This document shows, piece after piece, positions 43,966 to 50,672 of a DNA stretch of 64,000 bases. The notes under the pieces were generated by a model that saw only the letters and a list, made by a program, of their open reading frames with translations, ran no database searches and was not told the origin of the DNA. The position numbers and the translations under genes were made by a program. The stretch spans positions 246,953 through 310,952 of the forward strand of contig JAABSW010000001.1 of the NCBI GenBank assembly GCA_011390155.1. The letters run 5' to 3'. Numbering within the stretch: position 1 is the first letter of the stretch; every line of letters begins with the position of its first letter. This DNA comes from Clostridiaceae bacterium. Lineage in GTDB: Bacteria > Bacillota > Clostridia > Peptostreptococcales > Tindalliaceae.

Positions 43966-46638
43966 ATGATCACTTTGAATATAAATGGTTTCGAAGTTGA
44001 AATCAAAGAAGGCAGCACCATTTATCAGGCTGCATCGAGCATTGGGGTTAAAATTCCAACGCTATGTCATGACGAAAGGCTTAAACCCCATGGATCATGT
44101 CGCATCTGCGTTGTAGAGGTGGAAGGAGCCAGGTCTTTGGTTGCATCATGCAGCACTCCTGCTTCCAATGGTATGGTTGTCCACACGGAAAGTGAATCTG
44201 TTATTACAGCAAGAAGGGAAATACTGGACCTCATGCTGGCCAATCATCCATTAGATTGTTTGACATGTGAAAAAGCTGGACGTTGTACATTGCAAGACCT
44301 TTGTTATCAGTATGATATCGAAGAAAGTTCTTTTGATGGAAAGAAAAAGAAATATGAGAAAGACACATCCAACGAGTTCTACTATGCTGATCAGACCAAG
44401 TGCATTCTTTGTGGAAAATGTGTATACGTTTGTTCTCAGGTGCAAAATACTGATGCCATTTGTTTTGTTGACAGGGGGTTTGAAACACACGTTGGAACAC
44501 CTTTTGACCTGGGTTTGGCTAAATCAACATGTGTATCTTGTGGAAACTGCGTCGCAGCATGTCCTGTAGGCGCGTTGATGCCTAAACGAAAGGAAAAATT
44601 TCGTTATTGGGAAATAGATAAGGTGAAAACAACCTGTTCCTATTGTGGCGTTGGTTGTCAAATGGAATTGCTTGTTAAGGATAATAAAGTTGTGGAGGTT
44701 GAACCGGTCAAAGGACATTCCAATGATGGAATGCTATGTGTAAAGGGCCGTTTTTCCTACGACTTTATAAACCATTCATCAAGATTGAAAAAACCAATGG
44801 TAAGAAAAAATGGTGTGTTGGAAGAAGTTTCCTGGGATGAAGCCTATGATGTTATCGCCAATAAAATCACAGAAGTAAAAGAAAGTGACGGTGCCGATGC
44901 CATCACGGGATTTTCATCTGCCAGGGCCTTAACAGAAGAAAATTATTTGATGACCAAGTTAATGCGTGCTGTGATTGGAACAAATAACATTGATCATTGT
45001 GCGCGTCTCTGACATTCCTCTACAGTTGCAGGTCTTGCAACTACACTGGGAAGCGGAGCAATGACCAATGGTATTGCAGATATACAAAAAGCAGATGCTT
45101 TATTTGTGACAGGATCAAACACAACAGAATCTCATCCCGTAATTGGTGCTCAGATAAAAAGAGCAGCCAGAAATGGTGCAAAACTTATTGTAGCCGATCC
45201 GAGAAAAATTCCATTGGCAGAAGAAGCGGATATTTTCCTGAAAATCAAGCCTGGTACGAGTATTGCACTACACAATGCCATGATGAATGTTATTATAAAC
45301 GAAGGCCTGCAAGACGATAAATACATTAGAGAAAACACAGAAAATTACGAAGAACTGGTTGAGAGCCTTAAAAAATACTCGCTGGAATATGCGGCAGAAA
45401 TTACTGGCGTTGAAGCATACCTCATTCGAGAAGCAGCTATCATGTATGCAAGTGCTGAAGCAGCTTCAATCCTTTATTGCATGGGAATTACCCAGCACAC
45501 AAATGGAACAGAAACAGTTATGAGTCTGTCAAACCTTGCTTTGATAACGGGTAATATCGGTAAAGTGGGGACTGGTGTTAATCCGTTAAGGGGTCAAAAC
45601 AATGTGCAAGGTGCCTGTGATATGGGAGCTCTTCCCAACGTCTATACAGGGTATCAGCCCGTTACCAATACAGGAGCTCGAGAAAAATTTGAACAGGCTT
45701 GGGGTGTCAAGCTTTCTGATAAAATTGGACTTACTGTCACTGAGACTTTTAAAGCAATCGATGAAGATCGCGTTAAAATGCTTTATATTTGCGGAGAGAA
45801 CCCTATGATTTCTGATCCCGATACACATCATGCAGAAAGAGCACTGGATAAAGTGTTTTTAGTAGTACAGGACTTGTTCCTGACGGAAACAGCAGAATTG
45901 GCAGATGTGGTATTGCCAGCAGCTTCTTTTGCAGAAAAAGATGGAACATTTGTAAATACTGAAAGACGCATACAAAGGGTGAGAAAGGCTGTTGAAGCTC
46001 CTGGTGAAGCTAAACCTGATTGGATCATCTTTATGGAATTGATGAATCGCCTGGGATACGAAGAGCATTTTAACAGTGCTGAAGAAATATTTGAGGAAAT
46101 CCGTCAACTAACACCGCAGTACGCAGGGGTCACGTATGAACGGATCAAAAATAAAGGTATTCAATGGCCATGCCCAACATTGGATCACCCAGGAACTAAT
46201 GTGCTTCATGCAGGTAAACCTGCAAGAGGTGCAGGATTCTTAAAACCTGTTGAACACCTTGAATCTCTGGAAATAGGAGAGGATAAGTATCCGTTGGTGA
46301 TGACGACAGGCAGGATGCTTTACCAATACCATACAAGAACGATGACGGGTAAAACCGAAGGTATTAATCTAATAGCACCAGAGCTTTATGCAGAAATCAA
46401 TCCATCCTTGGCTCAAGAGAAAGGAATAACTGATGGAGAAGTGGTAAAGGTAACATCAAGAAGAGGTTCTGTGACCATGAAAGCTAAGGTGACTGACCGC
46501 GTTAATAAAGAAGTTGTTTTTGTTCCTTTCCACTGGGACAGTGGAGCCAATGTACTTACCAATGGGGATGAGTTGGATAAATACTGTAAAATTCCAGGAC
46601 TTAAAGTAACCGGGGTTAATATTGAAAAAGCAGATTAA
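43966..46638 (+). CDS. fdhA: Formate dehydrogenase catalytic subunit, selenocysteine-containing (NuoG-type N-terminus)
   Basis: One continuous 890-residue reading frame interrupted only by an in-frame TGA at 45010-45012 (residue 349). The context HCARL-U-HSSTVAGL matches the selenocysteine site of formate dehydrogenase H family proteins, and a SECIS hairpin follows. Domains: [2Fe-2S] (CHDERLKPHGSCRICVV, residues about 34-62), His-Cys [4Fe-4S] (HPLDCLTCEKAGRC), two [4Fe-4S] ferredoxin motifs (CILCGKCVYVCS, CVSCGNCVAACP), the molybdopterin-domain [4Fe-4S] (CSYCGVGC), then the Mo/W bis-MGD domains to the C-terminal dinucleotide-binding domain (FVPFHWDSGANVLT). It lacks a Tat signal, so it is cytosolic. 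It oxidises formate or reduces CO2 with the three upstream diaphorase subunits. Confidence 0.95.
45013..45052 (+). promoter_or_regulatory. Bacterial SECIS element in fdhA
   Basis: Twelve bases after the TGA, GTTGCA (45025-45030) pairs with TGCAAC (45036-45041) around a GGTCT loop, the same apical loop sequence as in E. coli fdhF, which binds SelB. A TTCC (45015-45018) can pair with GGAA (45049-45052) as a lower helix. The element directs Sec insertion at 45010-45012. Confidence 0.9.
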
Positions 46639-46708
46639 TTGTATGTAAGTATAGGTAGTAACATAAATGGGTATGATGGTTATAAGTTGATATTAAGGAG
46701 GTGCTTTT

Positions 46709-47209
46709 GTGAATCAAAACTACAAGAATATTATTCGTTATGCCATGGAGAGAGAGTTGCAAGGTGTTGATTTTTTTCGTCAGCAGGCAGAGAAAGTGAA
46801 TTTAGCCAGTGCAAAAGACATGTTATTGAGGTTATCTGAAATTGAAATGGACCACTATGAATACCTGAAAGAGCAGTTGGATCACTTTGAACAATACAAA
46901 ATATTTAAGGAAGTTGATTTTGATCTTGACCGGGAAAAAAATATTTTTGAAGACCGGGCTGAGTCTGAGCAATTAGGTCAACAGATGACTGAGTCAATGA
47001 TTCCGGATATGAGCGTGCTGCGAACAGCCTATTTGATGGAAAAGGATTTTGCTGAATTTTATCAGGACACTGCTGATCAATCTGATGATCAAAATGCCAA
47101 AAAGCTGTTTAGTACCTTGGCTCTCTGGGAAAGAGGACATGAAAGAATGTTCAAGCAAGAATACCAACGATTAATGGATGACTATATGACCCAACCATGG
47201 GGAGGATGA
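46709..47209 (+). CDS. Rubrerythrin-like ferritin-fold protein
   Basis: The 166-residue four-helix protein has diiron-type ligands visible: Glu in AMERELQGVDFF, E..H in EIEMDHYEYL, Glu in LMEKDFAEFYQ, and E..H in LWERGHERMF. There is no C-terminal rubredoxin domain. It is probably a peroxide or oxygen-protective or iron-handling protein. GTG at 46709 follows a perfect TTAAGGAGGTG. It sits between fdhA and fdhD, which suggests protection of the oxygen-sensitive enzyme; that is inference. Confidence 0.85.
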   Translation: MNQNYKNIIRYAMERELQGVDFFRQQAEKVNLASAKDMLLRLSEIEMDHYEYLKEQLDHFEQYKIFKEVDFDLDREKNIFEDRAESEQLGQQMTESMIPDMSVLRTAYLMEKDFAEFYQDTADQSDDQNAKKLFSTLALWERGHERMFKQEYQRLMDDYMTQPWGG

Positions 47210-47234
47210 ATAACCGTGGCATGAATAGACTACG

Positions 47235-47270
47235 TCCGATATCTACTATGATATCGGGCATAGTTTTATG
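47235..47270 (+). terminator. Inverted repeat, possible terminator before fdhD
   Basis: 8-bp stem CCGATATC (47235-47242) with GATATCGG (47249-47256), 6-base loop, then GCATAG and only T4. The T-run is short, so termination may be partial and fdhD could still be read from the fdh promoter. Confidence 0.5.
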
Positions 47271-47297
47271 CATAAGAGATGTTGAGTGGAGGATATC

Positions 47298-48107
47298 ATG
47301 ACTCAAAAACCAGAGAAAATTACTAAAAAAGTGCCAATCATTAAATATTCAGCATTAGGAGTTATGAAAGAGGAAGACACAGTTATTGTTGAATACCCAC
47401 TTACAATATATCTAAATGACACTGAATGGATTACACTTTTGTGTTCTGGAGAAAACCAATACTACCTGGCCGTTGGATTCATGTATTCGGAAAGTATCAT
47501 AAAAACCATTAATGATATTGACAGATGGCATTTGAAAGAAGAAGAAGGAAAAATATTTTTATATGTTAACGAAAATGTTGTGTTGAGGGATAAGATGAAA
47601 GGAAAACGAACGATTACCACTGGTTGTGGCAAAGGTACAGTTTTTTATGACGTACTTGACTCGCTGACCACCAAACCATCTACGAGTAGTGCAACGATTA
47701 AAGCTGAAACCATCATCAAAAAAGCTTCTGAATTTCAAAAGAGGTCAAAATTATTCATTGATACTGGTGGGGTTCATGCATGTGCATTATATTTAAATGA
47801 AGATTTGGTTTGTTTTCACGAAGATATTGGAAGACACAATGCTCTCGATAAAATCATTGGACAGGTTTTAACTTCTCAACAAACAATAACAGAAGAGTGG
47901 TTATTGGTAAGCGGACGAATCTCTTCAGAGATAGTTCTAAAAGCATCAAGGATTAATATTGGTGTCCTTGTATCAAGATCTGCACCTACAGACTTAGCTA
48001 TTGAAATTGCAACAAATATTAATTTGACAATTATTGGATTTGCCAGAGGAAATCGATTTAATCTATATACTGGCAATGAAAGGGTTTTATTTGAAAGAAA
48101 TGAATGA
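47298..48107 (+). CDS. fdhD: Formate dehydrogenase accessory sulfurtransferase FdhD
   Basis: The 269-residue FdhD transfers sulfur from a cysteine desulfurase to the molybdenum or tungsten cofactor, which is required for formate dehydrogenase activity. The motif TTGCGKGTVFYDVL holds the conserved cysteine (first Cys of the E. coli CxxC); the second Cys is absent. SKLFIDTGGVHACAL (47755-47800), EDIGRHNALDKIIG and SGRISSEIVLKASR are family hallmarks. The frame opens at 47286, but GTGGAGGATATC favours ATG 47298. It is downstream of fdhA and upstream of moaA. Confidence 0.93.
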   Translation: MTQKPEKITKKVPIIKYSALGVMKEEDTVIVEYPLTIYLNDTEWITLLCSGENQYYLAVGFMYSESIIKTINDIDRWHLKEEEGKIFLYVNENVVLRDKMKGKRTITTGCGKGTVFYDVLDSLTTKPSTSSATIKAETIIKKASEFQKRSKLFIDTGGVHACALYLNEDLVCFHEDIGRHNALDKIIGQVLTSQQTITEEWLLVSGRISSEIVLKASRINIGVLVSRSAPTDLAIEIATNINLTIIGFARGNRFNLYTGNERVLFERNE

Positions 48108-48126
48108 TATAATCAAACGTATATAA

Positions 48127-48226
48127 GTTTTCCGAGTTAATGAATCTAAGGGAACTCGTTCCTATGGTCATTAACCAATGGGTATAAAAAGAAATTTTTA
48201 TGCCTCCCGTGATGGAAAGGAAAAAC
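48127..48226 (+). ncRNA. Molybdenum cofactor (Moco) riboswitch aptamer
   Basis: Structure seen in the leader of moaA: P1 TTTTCC (48128-48133) with GGAAAA (48219-48224); P2 GTTAATGA (48136-48143) with TCATTAAC (48168-48175). Inside P2 is the 11-nucleotide tetraloop receptor (TCTAAG 48145-48150, TATGG 48163-48167) around a GGAA/TTCC hairpin. P3, 48181-48190 with 48195-48204, is capped by a GAAA tetraloop (48191-48194) that would dock into that receptor. This matches the Moco RNA motif, in which a GNRA loop and receptor occur. The conserved GCCTCCC segment starts at 48202. The family binds molybdopterin cofactor or its tungsten form. Confidence 0.85.
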
Positions 48227-48233
48227 CCGTTGG

Positions 48234-48258
48234 GGATCCTTTCTGGATTCTTTTTTTT
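48234..48258 (+). terminator. Intrinsic terminator, expression platform of the Moco riboswitch
   Basis: Stem GGATCC (48234-48239) with GGATTC (48245-48250, one G-T pair), loop TTTCT, then T8. GAAAGGA at 48215-48221 can pair with TCCTTTC at 48237-48243 instead, an antiterminator that excludes the stem. Confidence 0.85.
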
Positions 48259-48300
48259 ATGAAAAATAATATGAATGATTCTGAGTCAGGAGGATAACCC

Positions 48301-49260
48301 ATGGCTGATCGTTATCATAGAAACATAACTTATATGCGCATATCTGTCACTGATTTATGCAACATGAGGTGCCAGTATTGCATGCCTGAGTATGGAGTTG
48401 AGAAAAAACCTCATGAAGAACTGTTAAGTTTCGAGGAAATTGTAGCAATCGTAAAAGCGAGTGTGCCTTTGGGCATAGAAAAGATTAGAATCACTGGCGG
48501 CGAACCGCTGGTACGTAATGGAATCATAGGATTGGTTGAACAGATAAAACAGGTGGATGGCATAAAAGAAATAGCCATGACTACAAATGGCTCGCTTTTG
48601 AAAAAAATGGCAAAACCACTTAAAGAAGCAGGGTTAACCAGGTTCAACATAAGCATCGATTCTTTGGATCCTGCGCGGTATAAAGAAATCACCAGAGGCG
48701 GTAATTTGTCTGATGTACTTGAAGGTATTGATACTGTTTTGGATCTGGGAATGACTCCTCTGAAACTCAATACCGTGGTCATAGGAGGCTTGAATGACCA
48801 TGAAGTGTCGGATTTTGCTGCTATGACAATTGATCGGCCCATTGATGTCAGATTTATTGAATTAATGCCTGTTGGGCAGGCAAGTCAATGGGCAAAAGAG
48901 CGATTCATTTCCAACGAAACATTGCTTGATCGCTTGGGCCTCATGGTGACAGAAGTCGCTGAAAAAGGAAGCCCTGCAAAATATTTCCGTTTACCGGGGG
49001 CAAAAGGACGCATTGGTTTTATCAATCCAATCAGCCATCATTTTTGTCATGAATGCAACCGTTTAAGACTGACAAGCGATGGAAAGCTCAAACCATGCTT
49101 GCATAGCAACGAAGAAATTGACTTAAGAACCGTTTTGAATAAACCAGAGCAGCAAATCACTCGCGTTATTGCTCAGGCCATCGACCATAAGCCTGAGAAG
49201 CATCAATTGGATCAGGAAAATATTTGTACTACGCGTAATATGTGTCAAATAGGAGGTTGA
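48301..49260 (+). CDS. moaA: GTP 3',8-cyclase MoaA
   Basis: The 319-residue radical-SAM enzyme makes the first intermediate of molybdopterin synthesis from GTP. The SAM [4Fe-4S] cysteines are in DLCNMRCQYCMP; ITGGEPLVRNG is the SAM-binding GGE motif; the second [4Fe-4S] is bound by HECNRLRLTSDGKLKPCL (C-x2-C-x13-C, first Cys at HFCHEC). The C-terminus ends in GG, required for activity in MoaA proteins. ATG follows CAGGAGGATAACCC. The Moco riboswitch controls it. Confidence 0.95.
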   Translation: MADRYHRNITYMRISVTDLCNMRCQYCMPEYGVEKKPHEELLSFEEIVAIVKASVPLGIEKIRITGGEPLVRNGIIGLVEQIKQVDGIKEIAMTTNGSLLKKMAKPLKEAGLTRFNISIDSLDPARYKEITRGGNLSDVLEGIDTVLDLGMTPLKLNTVVIGGLNDHEVSDFAAMTIDRPIDVRFIELMPVGQASQWAKERFISNETLLDRLGLMVTEVAEKGSPAKYFRLPGAKGRIGFINPISHHFCHECNRLRLTSDGKLKPCLHSNEEIDLRTVLNKPEQQITRVIAQAIDHKPEKHQLDQENICTTRNMCQIGG

Positions 49261-49272
49261 TTCACCATCAAA

Positions 49273-49689
49273 GTGGAGATGATACAATCTAAAAACGATA
49301 ACAATGAATGGACTAAAAATGATGAGATGGTTTTTAAATCTGAGGTTGATTCCAGTCATGATAAAAATGATGTGAGTCTAATAAGTAATAAGGCATACTT
49401 GGAAGCCAGACAGAGTATTCATAAAGGATTTTGCCACAACCGCTTTGAACCGAACCTTATTATTTCAATGAACAGTGACGAAGAAAACCAGATGAAAGTG
49501 GGTGTTGAGCTTGACATAGATGGTGTCAAGCTTTTTGTATTACGTAAAAAACATCGATGTCACCAACATTGTCCTTTGTTTATGATGAACAACCAGTCTT
49601 GCCAATGGATCAAATACATTTACTATGCTGGTATAAAAAAAGGGGGCAGGCTAAAAAAAGGTTCTTCAGTGGTCATTCGAACCCCTTGA
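49273..49689 (+). CDS. Shortened MOSC-like domain protein
   Basis: The 138-residue protein (GTG start, after AGGAGGTTGA with a 12-base gap; the start is uncertain) has a polar, low-complexity N-terminus. Its segments NRFEPNLII and, later, RCHQHCPLFMMNNQSCQW plus KKGGRLKKGSSVVI match the C-terminal half of MOSC domains (FRPNI, then the CH..C and GG-IK-GD signature). The N-terminal MOSC part with the GD-AHAG type motif is missing. MOSC domains deliver or handle sulfurated Mo cofactor. Its place directly after moaA under the riboswitch supports a Mo-cofactor role. It may be a remnant. Confidence 0.65.
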   Translation: MEMIQSKNDNNEWTKNDEMVFKSEVDSSHDKNDVSLISNKAYLEARQSIHKGFCHNRFEPNLIISMNSDEENQMKVGVELDIDGVKLFVLRKKHRCHQHCPLFMMNNQSCQWIKYIYYAGIKKGGRLKKGSSVVIRTP

Positions 49690-49690
49690 A

Positions 49691-49719
49691 TTGACTCAAA
49701 CTGAACAAACGGATATAAT
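49691..49719 (+). promoter_or_regulatory. Strong sigma-A promoter for the murB-rapZ-yvcK region
   Basis: TTGACT (49691-49696) and TATAAT (49714-49719) are 17 bases apart, 42 bases before the murB ATG. Confidence 0.82.
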
Positions 49720-49760
49720 ATTATCAGATGACAATCATAAAACAATGAGGTGAAATCCCG

Positions 49761-50672
49761 ATGTTAGAAAGCATCATTAGATCAGTTTACAGTGTTATTC
49801 ATTCCGAGAGAGTTTTTATTGATGAACCCATGAGTAAGCACACTTCCTTTCAGATAGGGGGGCCGGCAGACGTGTTGGTGGTTCCCAAGAATGAAGATGA
49901 ACTTCAACAAATTATCCAATTGTGTGAACGTCAGGCTATTCCTGTTTTGATTATGGGTAAAGGCAGTAATATGTTAGTGTCTGACATCGGTATAAGGGGT
50001 GTGGTTGTTAAACTTGGACGGGGTTTTAACAAGGTATATTTGCATCAAGAATATATATTTGTACAATCGGGGGTAACACTGAGAAGTCTTTCTCAGACAC
50101 TGTTGCAGCATTCATTAGCTGGTTTTGAATTTGCCGCAGGCATTCCCGGCACCTTAGGTGGTGCATTGGCCATGAATGCCGGTGCGTATGGCGGGGAAAT
50201 GAAAGATATTCTGGTTTCATGCAGAGTGATGAACCACGAAGGACTGGTTAAGGAGTTGTCCCGGGAGGAGTTGGAATTGGGTTACAGGAGCAGTCGGGTG
50301 CAAAAAACGAAAGAAATTATACTATCTGCAAAATTACAGTTTAAGAAAGGCAGTTATAAGCAGATTAAATTCATCATGGACGATTATTGGCAACGACGGA
50401 TCACCAAACAACCTTACTATATGCCCAGCGGAGGAAGTGTGTTTAAACGACCTGAAGGATACTTTGCCGGGAAATTGATTGAAGATTGCCAGTTAAAAGG
50501 AGCCTCTATAGGTGGCGCTATGGTTTCAGAGTTGCATGCAGGTTTTATTGTTAATACTGGAAACGCCACAGCTGAGGATGTTGTTCGGTTAATGGAGCTG
50601 ATACAAAAAAAGGTTAAAGAAAGATTTAATGTCGATTTAGAAGCTGAATTACGGGTTGTTGGCGTATCATGA
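49761..50672 (+). CDS. murB: UDP-N-acetylenolpyruvoylglucosamine reductase MurB
   Basis: The 303-residue FAD enzyme reduces UDP-GlcNAc-enolpyruvate to UDP-MurNAc in peptidoglycan synthesis. FAD-binding motifs are TSFQIGGPADVLVVP and GKGSNMLVSDIGIRG, with AGIPGTLGGALAMNAGAYGGEM; the catalytic Ser lies in MPSGGSVFKRP, and GYRSSRVQ is conserved. The start follows GAGGTGAAATCCCG. The gene leads into rapZ and yvcK, an order seen in many clostridia. It is cytosolic. Confidence 0.95.
   Translation: MLESIIRSVYSVIHSERVFIDEPMSKHTSFQIGGPADVLVVPKNEDELQQIIQLCERQAIPVLIMGKGSNMLVSDIGIRGVVVKLGRGFNKVYLHQEYIFVQSGVTLRSLSQTLLQHSLAGFEFAAGIPGTLGGALAMNAGAYGGEMKDILVSCRVMNHEGLVKELSREELELGYRSSRVQKTKEIILSAKLQFKKGSYKQIKFIMDDYWQRRITKQPYYMPSGGSVFKRPEGYFAGKLIEDCQLKGASIGGAMVSELHAGFIVNTGNATAEDVVRLMELIQKKVKERFNVDLEAELRVVGVS

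Follow-up and report, generated by a model that had tools for sequence, protein, structure and literature searches.

A Moco-family riboswitch without P3 that probably turns off moaA by transcription termination in a clostridial genome

The moaA gene in the stretch of DNA analysed here (64,000 nucleotides, referred to as the window) is preceded by a riboswitch of the Moco family that lacks the P3 stem. This RNA probably switches moaA off by transcription termination, and its ligand is more likely to be the tungsten cofactor than the molybdenum cofactor. Taken alone, it is one well-formed addition to a known family and no new kind of RNA. The analysis contributes a P3-less example from a tungsten setting, an antiterminator made from the conserved core that recurs in other leaders, and a variant with a GCAAAG core in relatives.

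The family assignment comes from a covariance model, the check that the preliminary description of this DNA had named for its proposal of a Moco riboswitch. RF01055 matches positions 48118-48238 on the + strand, which also carries the promoter-like element, the terminator, moaA and the MOSC-like gene described below, with 70.0 bits (E 7.7e-15; gathering score 36), and the model is covered in full (1-135). This is the sole gathering-level match in the 64 kb window (cmscan, 4227 Rfam families), and no second copy was found in the organism's own genome (2.72 Mb, 125 contigs, 97% complete). The Rfam alignment contains the conserved junction core CCGAG ... CCUCCCG ... UGGAAAGG, and the RNA stands 5' of a molybdopterin synthesis gene, moaA (48301-49260), as is typical of RF01055. 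P1 is formed by GTTTTCC (48127-48133) and GGAAAAAC (48219-48226), and P2 with the tetraloop receptor extends over 48136-48175 (strands 48136-48143 and 48168-48175). P4, with 11 bp (48180-48205), carries a GNRA loop, GAAA (48191-48194), and P5 pairs CC with GG (48206-48215). The loop and the receptor halves UCUAAG (48145-48150) and UAUGG (48163-48167) lie exactly where they had been read from the letters. The first receptor pair is U-G here, while the usual receptor, CCUAAG/UAUGG, has C-G at this pair. P1 and P2 of the preliminary scheme can be kept as drawn; the GAAA-capped stem, labelled P3 there, corresponds to P4 of the published numbering. P3 itself is absent: its model positions are deleted in the alignment and a four-base junction, CAAU (48176-48179), stands in its place. 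The fold of 48118-48265 has an energy of -40.1 kcal/mol, compared to -30.7 (sd 3.9) for shuffled sequences (z -2.4; 5 of 200 shuffles equally good). Support for the structure is modest from energy alone and strong from the covariance model.

The absence of P3 bears on the ligand. Moco RNAs were split by P3 in the study of Regulski et al. (2008, PMC2408646), where the tungsten cofactor is proposed as the ligand of those without this stem, tungsten genes (counted as tupA, tupB or wtpA) being present in 17 of 19 organisms with such RNAs. Enzymes of the AOR family use tungsten virtually always, according to an excerpt of PMC11980592. The genome carrying the window encodes six AOR-family genes (L136-L141) and a tupB-like gene, which is 83% identical to that of Anoxynatronum buryatiense and is followed by an ABC ATPase gene (assigned by eye; the pair at L143, 3307-4726). 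Neither modA (TIGR01256, E <= 1e-10) nor a tupA-like gene (NF041772, E <= 1e-20) was found in the 97% complete assembly, and the tupBC-like pair has no tupA beside it. PF13531, which covers WtpA, gave a sub-threshold match only, in a MoeA-like protein. With AOR and tupB-like genes and without modA, but also without tupA, the genome fits the tungsten reading in part. Six AOR-family genes within one 2.7 Mb genome are an observation in their own right, as is the MoeA-like protein (641 aa; L003, 1351-3276), the C-terminal part of which is similar to a substrate-binding domain (22.9 bits to PF13531, under the cut-off). PF12849 matched one gene only, which was set aside as PstS-like by the permease gene following it (by eye). 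No riboswitch core was recognised on inspection of the sequences before the six AOR genes, to which one of the patterns used adds little as a test.

The same question was put to 121 RF01055 RNAs, which are all matches listed across 98 genomes comprising the own genome and relatives that belong for the most part to its order. The family was found in 46 of the 98 genomes, and one of the 121 matches (L135) is under the family cut-off. Two genomes stand out by number, with eleven (G047) and ten (G030) Moco RNAs each, some of them near each other (255 bases between G047:C1:2808776 and 2809031). Genes scored as tupA-like (NF041772 at E <= 1e-20, with no score above the curated cut-off) occur in 42 of the 98 genomes, namely in 39/46 with and 3/52 without RF01055 (Fisher p 1e-16), while modA occurs in 33, namely in 20/46 with and 13/52 without (p 0.06). 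RF01055 thus tracks tupA-like genes better than modA, where the p values are a guide only because the compared genomes are related.

The main alternative is that the same OFF riboswitch senses the molybdenum cofactor, or the cofactor with either metal, and that P3 was lost by lineage drift, which we regard as rather unlikely. It draws support from the prevalence of P3-less RNAs in the order: by eye, without a script, P3 was read as lacking in 116 of the 121 RNAs, whatever gene follows, and as present in five (L016, L017, L019, L052 and L134). P3-less RNAs also occur in genomes with modA (20 of the 46 RNA-bearing genomes have it), and no tupA-like gene accompanies the window RNA in its own genome. 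Genome G066 breaks the P3 rule, its P3-bearing RNAs (L017, L052) standing before tupA-like and tupB-like genes with no modA present. Against this alternative stand the closer association of RF01055 with tupA-like genes, the lack of modA next to six AOR genes in the own genome, and genome G072, where the only RNA (L019) bears P3, modA is present and no tupA-like gene is found, as the P3 rule predicts. Since P3 is missing, genes for tungsten enzymes and a tungstate-type permease are present and modA is not found, the tungsten cofactor is put ahead as the probable ligand, with doubt remaining. As a single copy with one plain target, in a genome that has tungsten-enzyme genes and in which modA was not found, the window RNA offers a compact test case for the 2008 proposal on P3-less RNAs and tungsten.

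The aptamer is followed by an intrinsic terminator, as previously noted, with an 8-pair stem, a 5-base loop and a T run (48232-48258, terminator scan). Its sequence is GGGGATCC-TTTCT-GGATTCTT at 48232-48252, with T's at 48251-48258. The conserved core GGAAAGGA (48214-48221) can pair with UCCUUUC inside this terminator. In the predicted minimum-energy structure it pairs with 48237-48244, which contains a 7-nt perfect complement, and draws on bases of both P1 and the terminator stem, so that the two pairings exclude each other. The antiterminator is contained in the predicted unbound fold of 48118-48265, and the evaluated energies of both states are close (-29.5 kcal/mol for aptamer plus terminator, -30.7 for the antiterminated form). 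This arrangement, with a complement inside the terminator whose pairing with the core prevents the terminator, is that of an OFF switch. In the proposed mechanism, the core would pair with its complement in the absence of ligand, the antiterminator would form and RNA polymerase would pass; with cofactor bound, P1 and the core would be held, the terminator would form and moaA would be off. The preliminary description had likewise expected excess cofactor to switch off moaA and the gene behind it; its direction agrees with what we infer from the pairing and the conservation of this pairing.

Wired the other way, the ligand-bound aptamer would prevent termination. In favour of this, little separates the terminator from P1, and it is possible to draw short A/U-rich helices joining the 3' strand of P1 to the T run (8 A/U-type pairs). 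An ON switch is nevertheless very unlikely, considering that the terminator stem begins at 48232, six bases past the end of P1, that the core complement inside the terminator makes an antiterminator, and that repression is reported for the E. coli RNA in the consulted part of PMC2408646.

The antiterminator pairing recurs in the leaders of other moaA genes. Fifteen RNAs, including the window RNA, have moaA as the first gene on the + strand, and the 110 nt following the core were searched for a perfect core complement and compared to 200 rounds of shuffling. A complement of at least 6 nt is found in 13/15 moaA leaders (shuffles: mean 1.8, maximum 4 in 200 rounds), and nine moaA leaders have one at 7 nt (0.24 expected); the 15 leaders are not independent, because near-identical genomes, such as those of L032 and L033, are in the set. 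Two of the 15 are without a core complement, which counts against the explanation favoured here. Across all RNAs the complement was counted in 56/121 (18.8 expected), with little enrichment in moeA leaders (4/14, 1.2 expected) and little or none in AOR leaders (1/9, 0.8 expected). In the 14 moaA leaders that were folded, the complement lies, by eye, in or beside a terminator hairpin, the stem of which varies by genus. The occurrence of the same layout in other genera also speaks against a relic that has lost its regulation, a reading that is hardly credible given 70 bits over the full model and an intact core, loop, receptor and terminator, even if copies do differ between close relatives: no RF01055 was found before the tupBC-like pair here, but one precedes its A. 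buryatiense counterpart (L103).

The gene order around the RNA is formate dehydrogenase-type genes (Nuo51-type, molybdopterin subunit), a rubrerythrin-like gene, fdhD, the RNA, moaA, a MOSC-like gene and murB. That moaA is the gene controlled, as first proposed, agrees with the matches to Radical_SAM (PF04055) and Mob_synth_C (PF06463) in 48301-49260; AGGAGG (48288-48293) is its probable ribosome binding site. The MOSC-like gene (49273-49689) is probably cotranscribed with moaA, and the same termination control would probably extend to it. Its naming stood less well for the window protein than for its relatives: PF03473 matches the former below the cut-off (E 0.0025, 18.2 bits; cut-off 22.7), whereas 16 of 21 aligned family members match at E <= 0.01 (best 1.1e-14), so that assignment to MOSC is good for the family as a whole and weak for this one protein. 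In the formate dehydrogenase alpha-type gene (43966-46638), an in-frame TGA was observed at 45010-45012. With this codon taken as one residue, the frame encodes 890 aa and the Molybdopterin domain spans the TGA, which is therefore probably a selenocysteine codon.

The aptamer model starts 11 bases past the last base of fdhD. A possible extended -10 element, TGATATAAT (48105-48113), shares bases with the stop codon of fdhD. It would place the 5' end of the RNA near 48120; no good -35 was seen with it. An exact TATAAT at, or up to 25 bases before, the aptamer start is found in 11/15 moaA leaders (1.5 expected by shuffling). It occurs in 28/121 leaders overall, where the moaA leaders alone stand out, and a looser -10 search over all leaders gave a weak excess (five or six matching positions in 77/121, 56.3 expected). 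The consensus promoter scan of 46600-49900 yielded 11 promoter-like sites, no excess over the 11.6 in shuffled sequences. As the best of these sites (49691-49719, 11/12 matches) precedes murB, the switch may govern moaA and the MOSC-like gene only.

In five of the 121 RNAs (L126, L127, L128, L132 and L133), GCAAAG and CCUGCC replace the GGAAAG and CCUCCC of the others, which swaps a pair of P5. The CUAAG/UAUGG receptor was not seen in these five by eye. A sixth GCAAAG RNA (L134) keeps P3 and differs from them. When 391 genomes of the class were searched for the GCAAAG core, 12 matches resulted, eight of them (L148-L155) with an aptamer upstream; these eight share the core by construction. The other four (L146, L147, L156 and L157) all carry one identical matched word, lack an aptamer upstream and were dropped. 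Of the 13 RNAs made up of the first five and these eight, 12 precede AOR genes, in eight cases separated from them by a small gene that belongs to a single family (ferredoxin-like by eye); the 13th (L148) precedes an ORF resembling a sigma-54 activator by eye. The loop is GAAA in three of the 13 (L152, L153 and L154) and another tetraloop in ten. A helix running from within the 3' strand of P1 up to a U-rich stretch reaches at least 10 pairs in 12/14 GCAAAG RNAs (all except L134 and L148), compared to 13/115 of the others (p 1e-8). With 8 pairs, the numbers are 12/14 and 40/115, the window RNA being among the latter by way of its A/U run.

If this P1-overlapping helix is a terminator, ligand binding would favour read-through, and a tungsten enzyme would be under the control of an ON switch; the arrangement suggests that the GCAAAG RNAs before AOR genes are such ON switches. 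The GCAAAG RNAs may, in addition, favour a different cofactor form. A tungsten-cofactor regulon with opposite wiring in Clostridia, with OFF switches (GGAAAG, antiterminator) before synthesis genes and ON switches (GCAAAG, no receptor, P1-overlapping terminator) before AOR genes, is put forward tentatively, with somewhat more doubt than confidence. Were it true, one signal would stop cofactor synthesis and start production of the cofactor-using enzyme. If the ON wiring of the AOR variant holds, this variant is a natural partner of opposite sign for the window RNA, and the two could be set side by side in one experiment for ligand and direction. In the genome carrying the window, GCAAAG RNAs were not seen. 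No description of the GCAAAG/AOR variant was found in the passages of the literature examined, to which few subscription journals contribute, and no claim of novelty is made.

Among known systems, the Moco RNA motif RF01055 (PMC2408646, here and below in the parts drawn on) agrees with the window RNA in consensus structure and core, in the GAAA loop with its receptor, in the position before moaA and in having a terminator-type expression platform. The commonest form of that motif has P3, whereas the window RNA is without it. For the E. coli Moco RNA, a ribosome binding site is drawn in P1, in contrast to the terminator found here; a reporter showed repression dependent on cofactor production, and direct cofactor binding could not be shown (PMC2408646). 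The same E. coli RNA modulates termination according to an excerpt of a transcriptomic paper (PMC12121620). Moco-II (RF01713), as far as described in the consulted part of PMC2864571, has the name alone in common with the window RNA, and the window contains no gathering-level match to it. The proposed P3-less class for the tungsten cofactor (Tuco, PMC2408646) shares with it the short junction in place of P3 and the molybdopterin synthesis gene downstream; it differs in that the own genome is without tupA, and the ligand of the class is itself a proposal in the sections of that paper considered. A close counterpart is the leader of moaA in A. buryatiense (L004, NZ_FXUF01000002.1). Its terminator stem has another sequence and no MOSC-like gene lies between moaA and murB, but it likewise matches RF01055 (63.8 bits), lacks P3 and has a terminator with a core complement, and the MoaA encoded behind it is 80% identical to that of the window.
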